DNA of 64,000 nt. Origin: Halobacteriovoraceae bacterium. GTDB lineage: Bacteria > Bdellovibrionota > Bacteriovoracia > Bacteriovoracales > Bacteriovoracaceae. The notes beneath the pieces are model-generated. The model saw nothing but the letters and a program-made list of their open reading frames with translations. It made no database searches and was not told the origin of the DNA. The stretch spans positions 1-64,000 of the forward strand of contig PASP01000012.1 in assembly GCA_002712005.1 (NCBI GenBank). Reading direction: 5' to 3'. The position numbers and the translations under genes are program-made. Position 1 is the first letter of the stretch; every line of letters begins with the position of its first letter. Shown here piece after piece: positions 7,280-53,532 of the stretch.

Positions 7280-7900
7280 CTAGTGCAGAGACTTCTGCTG
7301 CCCAACAATCATCTGACCTAGAACGGCCAATTTGTCATTGATATCATCCAACTGAAAAAGTTTATACTTATTTTCCCAGCCTTGAAGAATGTGATCAATA
7401 TAGAAAGCGAGAAGTTTTTCGGGATCAGATAATTGGGCCATAACAACTTCAAGTTCCGCATCGGTCTTAAGGAATTTCTGCATCCTTTCTCGAGTTAGAG
7501 ATCGAATTCTACGATAGAGAAATTCACTTTGGGGTTGAAGTTGATAATTTTGATTAATTGGCTCAAGTTCTAATTTGATATAGGGGTTTGCCTCATCTTC
7601 CACTCGAGTAACATGAGCTTTTCCCTGTGAATTGACCGCAATGAGAACCCCTTTAGGTGATTCACCAATCACTTCAACTTCACCATAACCCACATCCTGA
7701 CATATAAAGGGATACCCTTCATCGGGAATACCTACACTGGTTGAAAATTGGGTTTTTGATGCGTGAGCAATGGCCATAGGTATATCCGAAGCTACAGCAT
7801 CATTCACCATTTTTAGATAACTGGGTTCAAAAATATTTAAAGTTATTTTGCCCCCTGGACTTAAAATTAATCCAGGTAAGGGAAATAAAACAGCATCCAT
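7280..7900 (-). CDS. LON N-terminal (substrate-binding) domain protein
   Basis: 206 residues from the ATG at 7898-7900, directly preceded by AAGGAGGT with six-base spacing; the longer frame to 7921 would begin inside this ribosome site. Sequence MDAVLFPLPGLILSPGG and FEPSYLKMVND matches the stand-alone LON substrate-binding domain family (PF02190), found without the AAA ATPase and protease parts. The role is unclear; a peptide-binding or adaptor function is inferred from the domain. It converges with sixA, with 15 bases between the stops. Confidence 0.85.
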   Translation of the reverse strand: MDAVLFPLPGLILSPGGKITLNIFEPSYLKMVNDAVASDIPMAIAHASKTQFSTSVGIPDEGYPFICQDVGYGEVEVIGESPKGVLIAVNSQGKAHVTRVEDEANPYIKLELEPINQNYQLQPQSEFLYRRIRSLTRERMQKFLKTDAELEVVMAQLSDPEKLLAFYIDHILQGWENKYKLFQLDDINDKLAVLGQMIVGQQKSLH

Positions 7901-8107
7901 GGAGCGACCTCCTTGACTCATAAACTATGATTACTCGATGCTTCAATCTCGTCAAGCACAGCAACCTAAACGAAGCCCTTTGAGTGTTAGACAAAGAAGA
8001 GTAATTCCCTAGTTTATTCATAATCAAATCTTAACGAAAAGGGCTTTTCCTATTTCCTAGGACAGGTAGAATAGAAAAATATAATTTAGTACGATAAGGC
8101 CAATTTC

Positions 8108-10471
8108 ATGACAAAAACTTCTCCACGTTCGACTCGATCCTCAAAGAAATCGACCAAAAAAACCGCAAAGAAAACAACAAAGAAAGCGGCTAAAAAAAGT
8201 ACAAAGAAAACCGCAAAGAAAACGACAAAGAAAACCACCCCCTCACGCTCTAAAAAACAAATGTCCCGCAAAAGAGGCCAGACCAAAAAGATTTCCCGCA
8301 AAACTACCCAGAAATCCACCCCTACCCCTTTGCAAAAGAGAACCAAAAAACCCACTCAAAGAAAGAAAATATCCACCACTCCGTTGAGTGTAGAATTTGG
8401 TTCAGAAAAATATAATCCTCAACACTTCTTTAATCGCGACATCAGCTGGCTTGACTTTAATTTTCGCGTTCTCAATGAGGCCCTCGACGAAAGGACCCCT
8501 TTATTAGAAAGACTTAGGTTCATGTCGATATGGCGCTCTAATAACGATGAATTCTATATGAAACGAGTGGGCTCTCTTCATAAGAAGAGAAAAGAAGGCA
8601 ATTCCGGTGTCTACCTTTCCGGTCACTCTCCAGAAGAGCTTCATAATGAGATGAGAAAGAAAGTGGATCATCAACAGAAGCTCCTTGAAATATGTTTTGA
8701 TAAAACCATCATTCCCTCCTTACAAGCTGAAGGAATCAAACTTCTTAGCTGGCAGGATTTGAATGACAGTGAGGCCAGAGAGCTTAAAGAATATTTTAAA
8801 CGAAATATCTTTCCCATCCTCACTCCCCTGGCCGTGGATTCTGGCCACCCCTTTCCCTTTCTTTCCAATCTCTCCAAGTCTATTGGAGTGGCCCTAAGAA
8901 AGCCCCGCAATCGAACTCGTCAATTTGCTCGGATTAAAATTCCTTCTGAAATTCCTCAGTGGATTAAGCTGGCAAAGAATCGCCACTATGAATACCGCTT
9001 CATCAATCTTGAAGAAGTCATTATGGCCAATCTGGACACCCTCTTTTCGGGAATGATTATCGATGCTTCTTGTATTTTTAGAATCACGCGTAACGCAGCC
9101 ATTAGTGAAGATGGTGATGATGCTGAAGATAAAATGGAATGGGTTGAAGAGGGCCTAAGAGAGAGAAAGTTTGCTCCAGTCGTTCGTCTTGAAATGGTTG
9201 GTAATCCCGATCCATGGCTCATTCAATTTCTAATGACGGAGCTTGAAATCGAAGAGGATGGGCTCTTTATCATCAAAGAGCTTCCTCTCTATTCGAGCTT
9301 TTCAGAAATCTTAGATATCAATCGTAAGAAATTAAAATATAAGAAATTCACACCGGTCATCCCTGCTCAATTTGACCACAAAGGAAATACAGACTTTAGT
9401 CTCTTTCAAATGATAAGAAAGAAAGACACCTTGGTTCACTATCCCTATGAGAGTTTTTCTCAGTCAGTGGAAACCTTTGTAAAAATGGCCGCAGAAGACC
9501 CTAAAGTCTTGGCCATAAAAATCATTCTCTATCGTACAGATACTGATGGCAGACTTATCGATGCCCTCATTCGCGCGGCCGAGAATAAAAAACAAGTCGC
9601 TTGTATTATTGAACTTAAGGCCCGCTTTGATGAAGAAAGAAATATTCAGTGGGCCCAGAAGCTTGAAGAAGCTGGTATTCATGTCAGCTACGGTCTCATG
9701 GAGTTAAAAACCCATGCCAAAATGATTTTAGTCGTTAGACAAGACGCCGATAGAATACGCTCCTATGTCAATATAGGAACGGGGAATTACAATTCCCAAA
9801 CATCTCGCCTCTATACCGACTACGGCCTCTTTACATGTGCAGATGAAATAGGCTCCGAAGTTCTCGAGGTATTTAATTACCTAACCGGTCGTTCACGCAA
9901 ACAAGATTATAAAGAACTTCTTGTTGCCCCCTACACTATGTTCAAACGCTTTATCGAGTTAATTGAAAATGAAACGAAGAATGCACAGGCCGGAAAACCA
10001 GCGCGGATAGTGGCGAAAATGAATCAATTAGAAGAGCCGCAAATCATTGAGGCCCTTTATAAGGCATCCCAGGCCGGAGTAAAAATAACCCTCTTCATCC
10101 GAGGTTTTTGTAGCCTACGTCCCCAAATGACGGGAATATCAGAAAATATTCAAGTCTTCTCTCTTGTAGGACGCCTTTTAGAACATAGTCGAATCTATTT
10201 CTTTCAAAATGCGAAGAAAGTCCCTCGCCAAGGGCTATTCTATCTAGGAAGTGCAGATTGGATGCATAGAAATCTCTTTGACCGAGTGGAAGTCATCACT
10301 CCTATTAAGAAGAATGATCTCAAACAAGAGCTATGGGAATACCTAAGTTTATTGGAAAGAGATGATCGTCATCTTTGGGAGCTTAAGTCCGATGGAACCT
10401 ATGTCCAAAGGAGACCTTCCAATGAGAAGAAGGCCATTAATTCTCAATTACTCATTCTCAAACAAAATTAA
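8108..10471 (+). CDS. ppk1: Polyphosphate kinase 1 with lysine-rich histone-H1-like N-terminal tail
   Basis: 787 residues against a usual ~690. Polymerises the gamma-phosphate of ATP into polyphosphate. The PPK core starts near residue 100 (QHFFNRDISWLDFNFRVLN). The autophosphorylated His is His536 in LKTHAKMILV, followed by NIGTGNYNSQTSRLYTD. Residues 1-95 are an extension almost entirely Lys, Thr, Ala, Ser and Arg (STKKTAKKTTKKAAKKSTKK and so on), resembling histone H1/AlgP tails; it is absent from typical PPK1. QueF at 52.9 kb has the same kind of tail. The gene converges with a Ppx/GppA phosphatase and shares a TTAA at the stops. The tail's role (DNA, RNA or polyphosphate binding) is inference. 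Confidence 0.95.
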   Translation: MTKTSPRSTRSSKKSTKKTAKKTTKKAAKKSTKKTAKKTTKKTTPSRSKKQMSRKRGQTKKISRKTTQKSTPTPLQKRTKKPTQRKKISTTPLSVEFGSEKYNPQHFFNRDISWLDFNFRVLNEALDERTPLLERLRFMSIWRSNNDEFYMKRVGSLHKKRKEGNSGVYLSGHSPEELHNEMRKKVDHQQKLLEICFDKTIIPSLQAEGIKLLSWQDLNDSEARELKEYFKRNIFPILTPLAVDSGHPFPFLSNLSKSIGVALRKPRNRTRQFARIKIPSEIPQWIKLAKNRHYEYRFINLEEVIMANLDTLFSGMIIDASCIFRITRNAAISEDGDDAEDKMEWVEEGLRERKFAPVVRLEMVGNPDPWLIQFLMTELEIEEDGLFIIKELPLYSSFSEILDINRKKLKYKKFTPVIPAQFDHKGNTDFSLFQMIRKKDTLVHYPYESFSQSVETFVKMAAEDPKVLAIKIILYRTDTDGRLIDALIRAAENKKQVACIIELKARFDEERNIQWAQKLEEAGIHVSYGLMELKTHAKMILVVRQDADRIRSYVNIGTGNYNSQTSRLYTDYGLFTCADEIGSEVLEVFNYLTGRSRKQDYKELLVAPYTMFKRFIELIENETKNAQAGKPARIVAKMNQLEEPQIIEALYKASQAGVKITLFIRGFCSLRPQMTGISENIQVFSLVGRLLEHSRIYFFQNAKKVPRQGLFYLGSADWMHRNLFDRVEVITPIKKNDLKQELWEYLSLLERDDRHLWELKSDGTYVQRRPSNEKKAINSQLLILKQN

Positions 10472-11433
10472 AAAGTGCGATAAGTGAGCTCACCTCGAAA
10501 CTTAGAGTCGAGCTCATCGCAAATTTTAAAGAGTCCTCCATGAATCAAGCCGATGTCGGGCGTATAGAGTTTCTTCATAGGGACGAAGGACATGATATTT
10601 TCAATGATATAAATGGCAGGGACAATGACGTCGGCCCTGTCGTGACGTAGTCCAAACTTCTTTGTACGATTAAGAAGAGCTGTCTCCTCTATCACCTCTC
10701 TAATGGCAGCGACTTCATCAGGAAGAACATATTCGATATTTTTTATTTTCAGGATCTTCTTTCTCAAACGGCTTAAGCGCTTAAAGTTTCCCCCTGTACC
10801 AATAACCCTTATAGGCTTCACACTTAATTGGCACTGACTGAAGAATTCCTGAATTTCAGGATTGAGGCTAGAGAGATAATCACGATAGCCCCGCTCAGGA
10901 CTTACTCCTTCCCTTGCGGCCTTCTTTCCGACTTCAAGTAATCGAACAGCACCCATAGGTAAGCTGATCGAATTTTGAACTTCCCCTTTCTTTAAGAGAG
11001 AGAGTTCAGCAGAGCCCCCTCCAATATCAAAGAGCAGAAAATCTTTTTTAGTCAGATCAATTTTGGATTGAACAGCTTTGCGAATCAACAGAGCTTCCGT
11101 TTGCCCATCAATTAAATCGATAAGAATCCCTGAAGCTTTATGAACTTCTTCTATCAACTGATGACCATTTTTACTATTGCGAAGAGCTGATGTGGCCACG
11201 GCCTTATAAGCGATAACAGAATCCTGATCCATTAGCTTTCTAAACTCTACAAAGTTCTTAACCACGGAATCCCTAGTGGCCTGAGACAGCTCTTGCCCTG
11301 AAAAGACCTCTGCCCCTAAGCGAATAGGAGTTCTCACCCGATTGATGAGGGTAAATTTTCCCGTTAAATCAATTTCACCAATGGCCATACGAATGGCATT
11401 GGAGCCAATATCAAAAGCTGCAATTTTTTTCAT
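10468..11433 (-). CDS. ppx: Exopolyphosphatase / guanosine pentaphosphate phosphatase (Ppx/GppA family)
   Basis: About 321 residues. ASKHA-fold phosphatase: IAAFDIGSNAIRMAIGEI at the N-terminus and FLLFDIGGGSAELSLLKKG near residue 140 are the two phosphate-binding loops. Family members cut terminal phosphates from polyphosphate or pppGpp. Only the two N-terminal domains are present, so this is the short form. The start is uncertain: a TTG nine bases upstream is in frame; I chose the ATG giving MKKIAAFDIG. Its place opposite ppk1 with overlapping stops suggests control of polyphosphate level, by inference. Confidence 0.9.
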   Translation of the reverse strand: MKKIAAFDIGSNAIRMAIGEIDLTGKFTLINRVRTPIRLGAEVFSGQELSQATRDSVVKNFVEFRKLMDQDSVIAYKAVATSALRNSKNGHQLIEEVHKASGILIDLIDGQTEALLIRKAVQSKIDLTKKDFLLFDIGGGSAELSLLKKGEVQNSISLPMGAVRLLEVGKKAAREGVSPERGYRDYLSSLNPEIQEFFSQCQLSVKPIRVIGTGGNFKRLSRLRKKILKIKNIEYVLPDEVAAIREVIEETALLNRTKKFGLRHDRADVIVPAIYIIENIMSFVPMKKLYTPDIGLIHGGLFKICDELDSKFRGELTYRTF

Positions 11434-11494
11434 TACCTTCAACTCTAGCAGAAGGCCTTAAATTTGACGAGAATTTTGAAGCTGACAAAGCGAA

Positions 11495-49288: not shown

Positions 49289-50209
49289 ATGGGACTTCGA
49301 AATCTTATCCTTTTCACTAGAGATTCATCACTAGCAAGTATCGTGAATATTTCCCAACTTGCTCAATCTCATCAACTCAATCTTTTTCTAAGAAATCCCT
49401 TTGAAATCTCCATTGAAGATTCGTCATTTCAGGCCCTCTTGGAAGAACAAAACTTTGAAGAAACGATAGTTCTCAATCGCTGCAGTGGCATCACCTTTGA
49501 TGATCACGATCTCAACCTCTGTGATTTTCTCGTGGATAAGGGATGTTTCTGTCCTCACAGAATTTCTTCTTTGAGAATCCTGCGTGACAAAGATCAACAA
49601 TACCTCTTTCTAAAAAAGAAAGACTATCCCATGGTCAAGACCTTCATTCATCGAGGACTTCTTACTGAGGAAAAATTAAGGAACTTTGATCTCACCACTG
49701 AAAAAAAACTGGAATCTAAATTATGGATTGTAAAATCAATAAGAGGCAATAAAGGAATTGGCATCCTAAGACTCACGACTAAAGAGCTTCTCTCATTTTG
49801 GGAAAAGGCCGTAGCTCAACGTGATCAACGTTTTTTGATTCAGCCCTTTTTAGGAAGGGAGCCTCACTCTCATGAAGGCGCCAGAGAAATAAGAATTCTC
49901 AATTTAGGAGAGAGAAATTTTGCGGTTGAAAAAGAACAAGGATCCAACTGGAAAAAGAATGCTCAATTCTCTTCCTTTAAAGAAGCCTCAATTAAGGAGA
50001 GCGAAAGAAATCACCTCTTTCACCTTAGTGATAAAATAAAAGAAGATTTATCCCTTCCCCACATGGCCGTAGACTTCATTTGGAATTCTCTCAATCAAAG
50101 ATGGGAAATCCTTGAGGTCAACACTCATCCCGGATTAGAGGCCAGTAGCGAGGCGCTGGGAACTTCCCTTTATCCTCTCTACTGGAATTCTATCTTGCCC
50201 CCAACCTAG
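49289..50209 (+). CDS. RimK-like ATP-grasp ligase
   Basis: 306 residues from the ATG at 49289 (a GTG at 49271 is also in frame; neither has a strong ribosome site). ATP-grasp features: WIVKSIRGNKGIGI (ATP-binding Lys and glycine loop), QPFLGREP, and MAVDFIWN ... EILEVNTHPG, which supplies the metal-binding Glu and Asn. Family members join an amino acid or peptide by an acyl-phosphate. The substrate cannot be deduced. It lies between an M14 peptidase lipoprotein and ferrochelatase, with 4 bases of stop overlap with the latter. Confidence 0.75.
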   Translation: MGLRNLILFTRDSSLASIVNISQLAQSHQLNLFLRNPFEISIEDSSFQALLEEQNFEETIVLNRCSGITFDDHDLNLCDFLVDKGCFCPHRISSLRILRDKDQQYLFLKKKDYPMVKTFIHRGLLTEEKLRNFDLTTEKKLESKLWIVKSIRGNKGIGILRLTTKELLSFWEKAVAQRDQRFLIQPFLGREPHSHEGAREIRILNLGERNFAVEKEQGSNWKKNAQFSSFKEASIKESERNHLFHLSDKIKEDLSLPHMAVDFIWNSLNQRWEILEVNTHPGLEASSEALGTSLYPLYWNSILPPT

Positions 50210-52680
50210 GCTTCAGAAGGCTTAGGTAATTTGGCCACCAAGAGCATGGGGATAATCAAGAAAGCCGCTCCGATAAAATAAGGAGAGCTTGATCCACTCT
50301 TCCAATAAAGAAGGGAGGCCAATATAGGTCCAATCACTCTGGCCAAGGCACCGAGAGAACGAAAAATCCCCACACTTCGTCCTTGATCTTGAGAAGGTGT
50401 ATAGAGACTTACTAAAGTAGTTAAACAAGGTGTGGCCATTGAACTTCCCACGGCCAAGAAGAAAAGTCCTAAATAGAGCAACCAAGTTGAATGAGCAAAA
50501 CCAATGGCGACCAAACCAGGAACGAGAAAAATTAATCCTTGGAGTGCCATTTTCTTTTCCCCTACTTGGTTGGCCTTTCTTCTCACATATCCCCCTTGTA
50601 CAAAGGCGATCAGAAGACCGATAAAGATAAACATATAGGCATTATCCATAGAAGAATAACTCAAACGCTCGGCCGCGAGAAAGGTCAAAGTAAATTCCAT
50701 CCCCGAGAACGCCATCAAAAAGAGGAAGTATCCAAAGTTGGTTAAATTCACCCCTTCATAAGGGAGGGGCTTAAAGAGAATGAAAGGATTGATACTACGA
50801 TCCGATTCATTACGCCCTCTTTTTTCAGGAGGAAGAGTCTCTTTAAATTTCTTGGAGAGCCAAATAAAGTTAATTGCCGAAAGCACGAAGGCCAAAGCAG
50901 CTGGCATACTAAAAGGGTTCACTCCATAGGCCACTAAAGAGGGATAGATTTGAGTCAGATCAATTAAACTTAGAATCCCACCCATTGCAGGTCCAATGAT
51001 GAATCCAAAAGCAAAGGCAATACCAATGATGGCCATTCCTCGTGAACGATTTTGTCGTGTCGTAATATCTCCCACAACTGCAGTTGCCGTAGAAATATTT
51101 CCTCCCATAATTCCCCCAATAAAGCGGGCCAAAATGAGAAGAGTAAAGGAGCCACTGAAGAACCAAAGAAGATAACTTAAGGCCAAGAAGAAAACAGAAA
51201 TCATAAGAACCGGTTTTCTTCCAATGCGATCAGAAAGAGTTCCCCAAATAGGAGCGGCAATAAATTGAAGTAAACTATAAATAGCTCCGAGGGCCCCTCC
51301 AAAGAGAACGATCGCATTCATATCCGCTCCCCCAAGTTGGGTCAAAGACGTAATCGATCCAAATATGGCCTGAAGAAAGTAATTGTCCCCATCAACCGTT
51401 AGGTAGTGCTTAGCGAGAGCAGGAAAGAGCGGGAAGATGATGGAAAAACCAATGAGATCGAGAAATAATGTCAAAAAGACAATCTTTAATGTCCCCTTTG
51501 CCTCACTAGATAATCCGGGCTTCTCCATTTTAACTTCTTCCATATTCTTATAATCCTCTTTTTCCATTTGATAATATTGCTCGTAAATTTCACTTTGGCT
51601 TGATTCACAATGATGGGTAATGAGCTCAGCAAATCCTTCACACCAATGATCATCATCATTAAGGCAAGGGATGAATTGAACCTTCCCTCCTAACTCTTCA
51701 ACCTCTTCTCCCAATTCATTTCCGATCTCATCAACAGTCTCTAAACAGTCCGCAACGAAAGCAGGACAATAGACTGCAATCCTCTTACTTCCCTTCTCAA
51801 CCAGATCACAGCAATAAGCATCCGTATAAGGAGTGAGCCATTCTTCGGAACCAAATCGAGATTGAAAGGTCATATGGATGCGCTCTTTATCAATTCCCTC
51901 GATTGAACGAACGAGCAGAACAAAGGTTTCATAACAGTGACGATAATAGGGATCTTCCTTATCTATCACTCTTCGCTTTGGAATTCCGTGAAAACTGATC
52001 ACCAGCTCATCTGTTCCACCATCGCGATCCTTGAATTCACTTAAGAGAGAATTAATTTGTTTAACCGAGATATCGATAAAACACTTGGCCCTATGAAAGT
52101 CCGTAAAGAACTCAAAAGGTGGGATCTTCACGCGCTTTTCAAGCTCTTTGGCAAAGCCATCCATTCCACTAGCAATGGTGGCCTCCGAATATTGAGGAAA
52201 CATAGGAATGGCCAAAAGCTTAGTTGCCGGTTGAATCGACTCTCCCTTTTCTGCTCTTTTTAGATCCTCTTCCCAAGAGTCCCAGACATCTGAAACTCGC
52301 GGACTCGACAATAAGAAAGCGTGATTAATTTCAATCGTATGCTTTGCCTGCTCAGACAGGTATGATTCAACCTTCTTAGCAAAGCTCTCTGTAATGGTGA
52401 TTAATGGAAAACTCTGAGTTTTTTCATTCCAAATTCTTGAATAGGCCTCTGCACTTCTCTTAGGTCTAAAGGGAAGAACAAAGAGATTAAGAATCAATTT
52501 CCACAAAATGGGATTAATATCCACCACTCGGGGATCCCCTAAGAATTCTCTTAAATACTCTCTAACATGGGAAACTTTTGGAGACTTAGGCGATCCTAAT
52601 TGGACCAAAACGACTTTCGTCTTCCGCTTTTGTTGATTGGATTCACGCAGTGACTTTTCCTTATCAATCGTGTGGTTCAT
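50206..52680 (-). CDS. hemH: Ferrochelatase fused to an MFS transporter
   Basis: 824 residues in one frame. Residues of about 20-360 are ferrochelatase, which inserts Fe2+ into protoporphyrin: VLVQLGSPKSP, active-site His231 in ISFHGIPKRR, TFQSRFGSEEWL, and Glu314 in FVADCLETVDEI. A linker (about 361-395) leads to a major-facilitator domain with about 12 membrane segments (DLIGFSIIFPLFPALA, the loop GTLSDRIGRKPVLM, then GIAFAFGFIIGP), like DHA1/TetA-type exporters. Separate proteins are the norm. Internal ATGs in the linker (MEKEDYKNMEEVK) could also start the transporter alone. Haem or porphyrin export coupled to synthesis is an inference. Confidence 0.92.
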   Translation of the reverse strand: MNHTIDKEKSLRESNQQKRKTKVVLVQLGSPKSPKVSHVREYLREFLGDPRVVDINPILWKLILNLFVLPFRPKRSAEAYSRIWNEKTQSFPLITITESFAKKVESYLSEQAKHTIEINHAFLLSSPRVSDVWDSWEEDLKRAEKGESIQPATKLLAIPMFPQYSEATIASGMDGFAKELEKRVKIPPFEFFTDFHRAKCFIDISVKQINSLLSEFKDRDGGTDELVISFHGIPKRRVIDKEDPYYRHCYETFVLLVRSIEGIDKERIHMTFQSRFGSEEWLTPYTDAYCCDLVEKGSKRIAVYCPAFVADCLETVDEIGNELGEEVEELGGKVQFIPCLNDDDHWCEGFAELITHHCESSQSEIYEQYYQMEKEDYKNMEEVKMEKPGLSSEAKGTLKIVFLTLFLDLIGFSIIFPLFPALAKHYLTVDGDNYFLQAIFGSITSLTQLGGADMNAIVLFGGALGAIYSLLQFIAAPIWGTLSDRIGRKPVLMISVFFLALSYLLWFFSGSFTLLILARFIGGIMGGNISTATAVVGDITTRQNRSRGMAIIGIAFAFGFIIGPAMGGILSLIDLTQIYPSLVAYGVNPFSMPAALAFVLSAINFIWLSKKFKETLPPEKRGRNESDRSINPFILFKPLPYEGVNLTNFGYFLFLMAFSGMEFTLTFLAAERLSYSSMDNAYMFIFIGLLIAFVQGGYVRRKANQVGEKKMALQGLIFLVPGLVAIGFAHSTWLLYLGLFFLAVGSSMATPCLTTLVSLYTPSQDQGRSVGIFRSLGALARVIGPILASLLYWKSGSSSPYFIGAAFLIIPMLLVAKLPKPSEA

Positions 52681-52790: not shown

Positions 52791-52920
52791 CCTCAAATTA
52801 AGCCGATAAGAGGTTAAATCATAGAATAAATTTTTTGGAACCATAGCATAGGGACCACCACTTGAATATTTTTTAGGCTAGGGAAATTTTAGACTACCTG
52901 GCCAGCATTGGAGAATAAGC

Positions 52921-53532
52921 GTGAGCAAGAAGAAGACAGCCCCAAAAACAGCAAAGAAAGCAGCAAAGAAAGCGACAAAGAAAAGTGTAAAGAAATCATC
53001 CAACAAAGCGAATCAAAAAAGCCCAAAATCAAAGGCCCGCAACCCCCAAGAACTCAAAGACTTCTCACTCGGAGAATCCCACACCGACTACCCCTCGGAA
53101 TATGCCCCCCAAGTGCTCGAGGCCTTTGACAATAAGAATCCCAACGATATCGCCTGGACCACCTTTGTCTGTACAGAATTTACCAGCTTATGCCCTAAAA
53201 CGGCCCAACCTGACTTTGCTCGAATTTTTATTAACTATATCGCCGATGAGAAAATGGTGGAATCTAAGTCTCTGAAGCTCTATCTCTTTAGCTTCAGAAA
53301 TCATGGAGACTTCCACGAAGATTGTGTACAGAAGATCTGTAACGACCTCTTCAAACTTATGAAGCCCAAGTATATTGAAGTTGTTGGGGAATTTACTCCT
53401 AGAGGAGGCATAGCCATTTACCCCTATAGCTCTCAGTCCAATTCCGAGAAGAAATTCAAAGAACTTCTTGAAAAACGAAGACTTAACTACGCACCAGGGG
53501 CTTATACCATGCCTCTATCTCGAGTTTATTAG
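52921..53532 (+). CDS. queF: NADPH-dependent 7-cyano-7-deazaguanine reductase with lysine-rich tail
   Basis: 203 residues from a GTG with GGAG about eight bases upstream. Reduces preQ0 to preQ1 in queuosine synthesis. Catalytic Cys91 and Asp98 in TSLCPKTAQPDF; the E(S)K-type motif VESKSLKLYL and FTPRGGIAIYPY are QueF signatures; unimodular (YkvM) size. Residues 1-42 are an extra tail of Lys, Ala, Thr and Ser (KKKTAPKTAKKAAKKATKK and so on) that resembles the one on PPK1 at 8.1 kb. No other queuosine gene is adjacent. tatA follows. Confidence 0.95.
   Translation: MSKKKTAPKTAKKAAKKATKKSVKKSSNKANQKSPKSKARNPQELKDFSLGESHTDYPSEYAPQVLEAFDNKNPNDIAWTTFVCTEFTSLCPKTAQPDFARIFINYIADEKMVESKSLKLYLFSFRNHGDFHEDCVQKICNDLFKLMKPKYIEVVGEFTPRGGIAIYPYSSQSNSEKKFKELLEKRRLNYAPGAYTMPLSRVY

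Follow-up and report, generated by a model that had tools for sequence, protein, structure and literature searches.

Histone H1-like, lysine-rich tails recur as a module on unrelated enzymes, including polyphosphate kinase (PPK1), across the family Bacteriovoracaceae, whose members are mostly uncultured relatives of the predatory bacterium Bdellovibrio. The comparisons presented here indicate that the tails are a trait of the whole family and are carried by the same proteins across many genera. Tethering to the nucleoid or to polyphosphate, as suggested in a preliminary description of this DNA, would best explain them. In bacteria, H1-like tails are already known from a small number of proteins that act on DNA or belong to granules; their occurrence on a set of housekeeping enzymes throughout a family seems not to have been described. 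A literature search, with most subscription journals outside its coverage, returned no description of such a set, and a query combining Bacteriovorax with lysine-rich, within the same limited coverage, likewise found no paper.

Tails on PPK1 and QueF

The preliminary description had reported tails on PPK1 (residues 1–95) and QueF (residues 1–42) in the 64,000-nucleotide stretch of DNA analyzed here (the window). Both are real, lying in open frames with ribosome-binding sites at the start codons of the tails. The features of the PPK1 locus are as follows.

8095..8099 (+): Shine-Dalgarno-like TAAGG, read from the sequence, 8 nt upstream of the PPK1 ATG at 8108
8108–10471 (+): PPK1, single open frame with ATG start, 787 aa
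8108..8392 (+): H1-like N-terminal tail of PPK1, residues 1–95 (~95), K/T/S/A-rich, with 12-nt repeat units in 8142–8238
8393..10471 (+): catalytic part of PPK1, with the TIGR03705 match at residues 107–785
10468..11442 (−): exopolyphosphatase (Ppx/GppA family), convergent with PPK1 and without a tail

The enzyme belongs to the PPK1 family, matching TIGR03705 at 766.8 bits (cut-off 465.85), and its catalytic histidines, H536 and H693, are invariant among the 20 PPK1s compared. NCBIfam labels the matched subfamilies "RNA degradosome polyphosphate kinase." Alignment to the family models opens only at residue ~99–107, past the tail. In an AlphaFold2 model built from 20 PPK1s, residues 1–91 have a pLDDT below 50 and the confident core starts at ~95, predicting a disordered tail on an intact, folded enzyme core. 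With 31% Lys, 8 Arg, no Asp or Glu, no aromatics, and a net charge of +37, the tail displays the hallmarks of the H1-like class (long, disordered, Lys-rich, Ala/Thr/Ser/Pro-containing, and acid-free), and the H1/AlgP-like composition claimed at the outset is thereby borne out. A Ppx homologue adjoins PPK1 in at least nine loci of relatives. Separately, a stand-alone LON substrate-binding-domain protein is encoded divergently from PPK1 (window 7280–7921, −), and several congeners have a homologue upstream of PPK1.

The second tail is found on QueF, which matches TIGR03139 (QueF-II) at 151.8 bits (cut-off 86.9).

52910..52913 (+): Shine-Dalgarno GGAG, 7 nt upstream of the QueF GTG
52921–53532 (+): QueF, GTG start, 203 aa
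52921..53046 (+): H1-like N-terminal tail of QueF, residues 1–42 (~42)
53047..53532 (+): catalytic part of QueF, TIGR03139 QueF-II

This tail comprises 38% Lys with a net charge of +17 and no acidic residues. Among window ORFs of at least 150 aa, PPK1 (20) and QueF (17) rank highest in K+R per 40 aa, with the next at 14. An imperfect 12/24-nt tandem array, probably built by slippage as judged from its repeat structure, lies within the PPK1 tail. All four bases appear at the third position of the Ala and Thr codons in the tails, which indicates that the arrays are either old or recoded and that it is the amino-acid pattern, not the DNA repeat, that has been kept. As an aside, the window also encodes an apparent HemH–MFS fusion (50206–52680, −), in which one 824-aa frame contains ferrochelatase PF00762 at residues 21–357 followed by major-facilitator transporter PF07690 from residue 401.

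Distribution in the genome and the family

A search with full-length PPK1 protein recovered QueF and no further tailed protein, a consequence of low-complexity statistics, whereas degenerate DNA patterns worked and were used for a count over the 3.96-Mb genome. In frame, KK(T/A)AKK occurs 81 times versus 3 for a reversed control, and a two-unit motif occurs 116 times versus 0 for the control; the tails are therefore not due to chance. The KK(T/A)AKK occurrences are spread over 12 genes, a listing that is complete for this motif and may miss tails lacking it. In the carriers, the tails are placed at a protein terminus.

GyrB-like subunit: C-terminal tail
TopA: N-terminal tail
Class I fumarase alpha, G000:C2:177.7–179.1 kb (L058): N-terminal tail, 144 aa
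AMP nucleosidase: N-terminal tail
PPK1 and QueF: N-terminal tails
Histone-fold protein, G000:C4:40.4 kb, L059:2217–2483 (−): lysine-rich N-terminal tail of ~27 residues
Protein with helical/coiled-coil N-part, G000:C8:186.9–187.5 kb, L064:1901–2494 (+): K/A/T C-terminal tail, no family match
Tail-only protein, G000:C7:295.5–296 kb (L062): almost wholly K/A/T/V repeats, 58% Lys over 130 aa, H1-like
Three further genes: family unknown

Among solved bacterial histones, 9qt0 (3e-8), 8cmp, and 8fvx match the histone-fold protein; long N-terminal tails are said to be absent from most bacterial singlet histones (PMC10627809). With its AlgP/PhaF-like layout, the helical protein (L064:1901–2494) is a candidate granule or nucleoid tether.

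On sequence evidence, class I fumarase alpha is the strongest case of the phenomenon. Its K-rich tail occurs in 28/28 complete family loci (including L103–L132 of relatives), with a length of 15–144 aa (median 90) and a Shine-Dalgarno site at the tail start in 27 of them. A basic N-terminal tail of about 37–88 aa, weaker in a few cases, is present on TopA in all 19 loci read, and AMP nucleosidase is tailed in most of 23 loci, some tails being only weakly basic. Per genome, the two-unit motif has an approximate median of about 12 in Bacteriovoracaceae versus about 1 in the rest of the phylum, the latter drawn from 171 entries where the source table counts 169. With 12 tailed genes in this genome and the fumarase, TopA, and AMP nucleosidase tails found family-wide, the earlier view of PPK1 and QueF as a peculiarity does not hold, and the genome-wide count rules them out as a special functional pair.

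The distribution of the PPK1 tail is narrower. The named relatives of this PPK1 are Bacteriovoracales/Bacteriovoracaceae MAGs, and PPK1 is found in 22/57 genomes of the order; two further matches to the PPK1 query (24 in all) are tail-only matches to other enzymes and were left out of this number. Four of the five genus PPK1s have tails of 69–95 aa (G000, G020, G044, and G288, the last being the same sequence as L097), while the fifth, G022, has 24 aa. In other genera, PPK1 bears basic leaders of roughly 5–45 aa. Among the N-termini inspected, a subset of the PPK1s found in 187 genomes of a 291-genome phylum sample, none outside the genus has an H1-like tail. The long PPK1 tail thus appears younger than the family-wide tails. 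In the four congeners, the tail retains its length, a charge of +29 to +40, and a near-absence of acidic residues as its sequence drifts; the tails are alike beyond shuffled composition, a similarity that the repeats may inflate.

QueF is present in 56/57 genomes of the order, and its relatives mostly carry a basic leader of 6–30 residues. Among the 30 N-termini read, which range from 6 to 42 aa, the present genome has the longest K-rich repeat. The QueF tail therefore appears to be a lengthened version of a short basic leader common in the family, and it was rejected as a novelty of this genome. The preliminary description had considered such tails abnormal for both families, which stands for PPK1, where the long tail is unusual in the phylum, and not for QueF.

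Possible function of the tails

For the ligand, localization, and benefit of the tails, which we infer, our preferred reading is a general polyanion-binding nucleoid tether that, in the case of PPK1, can also retain the polyphosphate made by the enzyme; we give it about even chances of being correct. Bacteriovoracaceae would attach disordered, strongly cationic H1-like modules to the ends of many cytosolic proteins, and non-specific electrostatic DNA binding would keep each carrier on the nucleoid. The PPK1 tail would swap DNA for the polyphosphate made by the same enzyme, keeping PPK1 at or close to its product and the granule inside the nucleoid. PPK1 would then possess its own AlgP-like tether, taking on in cis the role of the trans-acting AlgP and PhaF, while the tails on QueF, fumarase, and AMP nucleosidase would serve as nucleic-acid tethers only. 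Because the TopA, GyrB-like, and histone-fold carriers act on DNA, the simplest assumption is that DNA is the ligand they all share. Lysine-rich tails also have affinity for RNA and ribosomes, which sequence alone does not distinguish from affinity for DNA. Two observations count against the tether model. The long PPK1 tail is missing in other genera and is short in G022, and it is thus not needed for PPK1 activity. In addition, P. aeruginosa Ppk1 is depleted, not enriched, in polyphosphate granule pellets (PMC9239181).

Several other explanations merit consideration. The tails might be largely neutral, arising by slippage of a 12-nt lysine repeat at gene ends and tolerated because they are soluble and disordered. 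The tandem array in PPK1 and the wide spread of lengths (fumarase, 15–144 aa; PPK1, 24–95 aa; QueF, 6–42 aa) fit this proposal, but tails are retained on the same proteins over many genera, third codon positions have diversified, acidic residues are almost excluded, and congeners retain charge and length without sequence, which together make neutrality unlikely in our estimate. We also regard it as rather improbable that the partner of the tails is RNA, the ribosome, or the RNA degradosome instead of the nucleoid, keeping PPK1 and QueF (an enzyme of a tRNA-modification pathway) with RNA: TopA, the GyrB-like subunit, and the histone-fold protein indicate DNA, and QueF works on the free base preQ0, not tRNA. 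The NCBIfam name of the PPK1 subfamilies does favor RNA, as do EngA, SrmB, YihI, and RNase R, ribosome or RNA proteins whose lysine-rich ends bind polyphosphate (PMC12077175, PMC12345225). Least probable, and in our judgment very unlikely, is a misannotated start with translation beginning past the tail. The PPK1 core begins only at residue ~104 and a TTG codon lies near residue 93, but Shine-Dalgarno-like sites occur at the tail starts of PPK1, QueF, and 27/28 fumarases, and the open K-rich frame is conserved in related genomes. By sequence inspection, no Shine-Dalgarno-like site precedes any in-tail start codon of PPK1. Misannotation, which the preliminary description had named as a way its tails could prove illusory, was rejected on start-site context and related genomes.

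A further possibility is that the PPK1 tail serves chiefly to hold or sense polyphosphate, either in a KPM-like manner or as a target of lysine polyphosphorylation, and keeps the enzyme on its product, with DNA irrelevant. Non-covalent KPM in P. aeruginosa involves about nine lysines per 20 residues plus runs of at least three lysines (PMC12077175). The PPK1 tail exceeds this density with 10 Lys per 20 and has no KKK, a run that is present in QueF and in the congeners' PPK1 tails. The absence of a tail on the neighboring Ppx and the restriction of granule targeting to basic polyphosphate kinases in R. eutropha (PMC9239181) also speak for this possibility. The lysine polyphosphorylation initially proposed, taken in the PASK sense, fails on definition: a PASK is a 20-residue window with at least 75% D/E/S/K (15/20) and a lysine, whereas the PPK1 and QueF tails alike reach a maximum of 13/20 and contain no acidic residues, and a PASK-type target was rejected. 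The same tails are borne by fumarase, AMP nucleosidase, QueF, and the topoisomerases. Polyphosphate plays no part in the work of most tailed enzymes, which makes a polyphosphate-only purpose unlikely, and the family-wide tails of fumarase, TopA, and AMP nucleosidase mean that a polyphosphate-centered purpose cannot be the general one. We consider this explanation improbable, and more so than either neutrality or RNA binding.

Returning to the nucleoid tether, a more specific version is that a shared, swappable H1-like tail acts as an address tag concentrating fumarase, AMP nucleosidase, QueF, and PPK1 on the nucleoid, with the PPK1 fusion coupling polyphosphate synthesis directly to the chromosome. 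We advance this version only tentatively. If the tails do tether, they would give bacteria a simple means of addressing proteins to the nucleoid and would connect polyphosphate synthesis physically and directly with chromatin, a connection hitherto suggested only via separate proteins such as AlgP.

Comparison with known systems

A close parallel to the PPK1 tail is AlgP of P. aeruginosa, whose H1-like KPAA tail binds DNA (PMC9239181). AlgP localizes to granules when polyphosphate is present and to the nucleoid when it is not, and deletion of its tail yields fewer, larger, and badly spaced granules (PMC9239181). In R. eutropha, granules are reached by basic polyphosphate kinases only (cited in PMC9239181). 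Both AlgP and PPK1 possess a long, disordered, lysine/alanine-rich H1-like tail, and AlgP is itself DNA-binding and tied to polyphosphate granules and the nucleoid. AlgP, however, is a helical protein in its own right that carries its KPAA tail at the C-terminus, whereas here a K-T-A-K-K-type tail is situated on the N-terminus of the enzyme that makes polyphosphate. The KPAA unit is absent from the PPK1 and QueF tail sequences, which places them outside the AlgP/PhaF family.

Other systems share part of this arrangement. In PhaF and PhaM, a basic or DNA-binding part is likewise proposed to anchor storage granules on the nucleoid, but these are granule-associated PHA/PHB proteins, whereas the present tails are on catalytic enzymes. 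The lysine repeats of actinobacterial TopA are H1-like, improve DNA retention, and raise processivity (PMC7398561); they are C-terminal, in contrast to the N-terminal TopA tail found here, and the present tails also occur on enzymes whose substrate is not DNA. KPM and PASK proteins (PMC12077175, PMC12345225) have lysine-dense, disordered, polyphosphate-binding ends whose lysine density is matched here, although PASKs require acidic or Ser-rich segments, unlike the PPK1 and QueF tails. Finally, HupB and HupS of actinobacteria carry an H1-like lysine tail on DNA-associated architectural proteins, whereas in Bacteriovoracaceae such tails are also found on metabolic enzymes.
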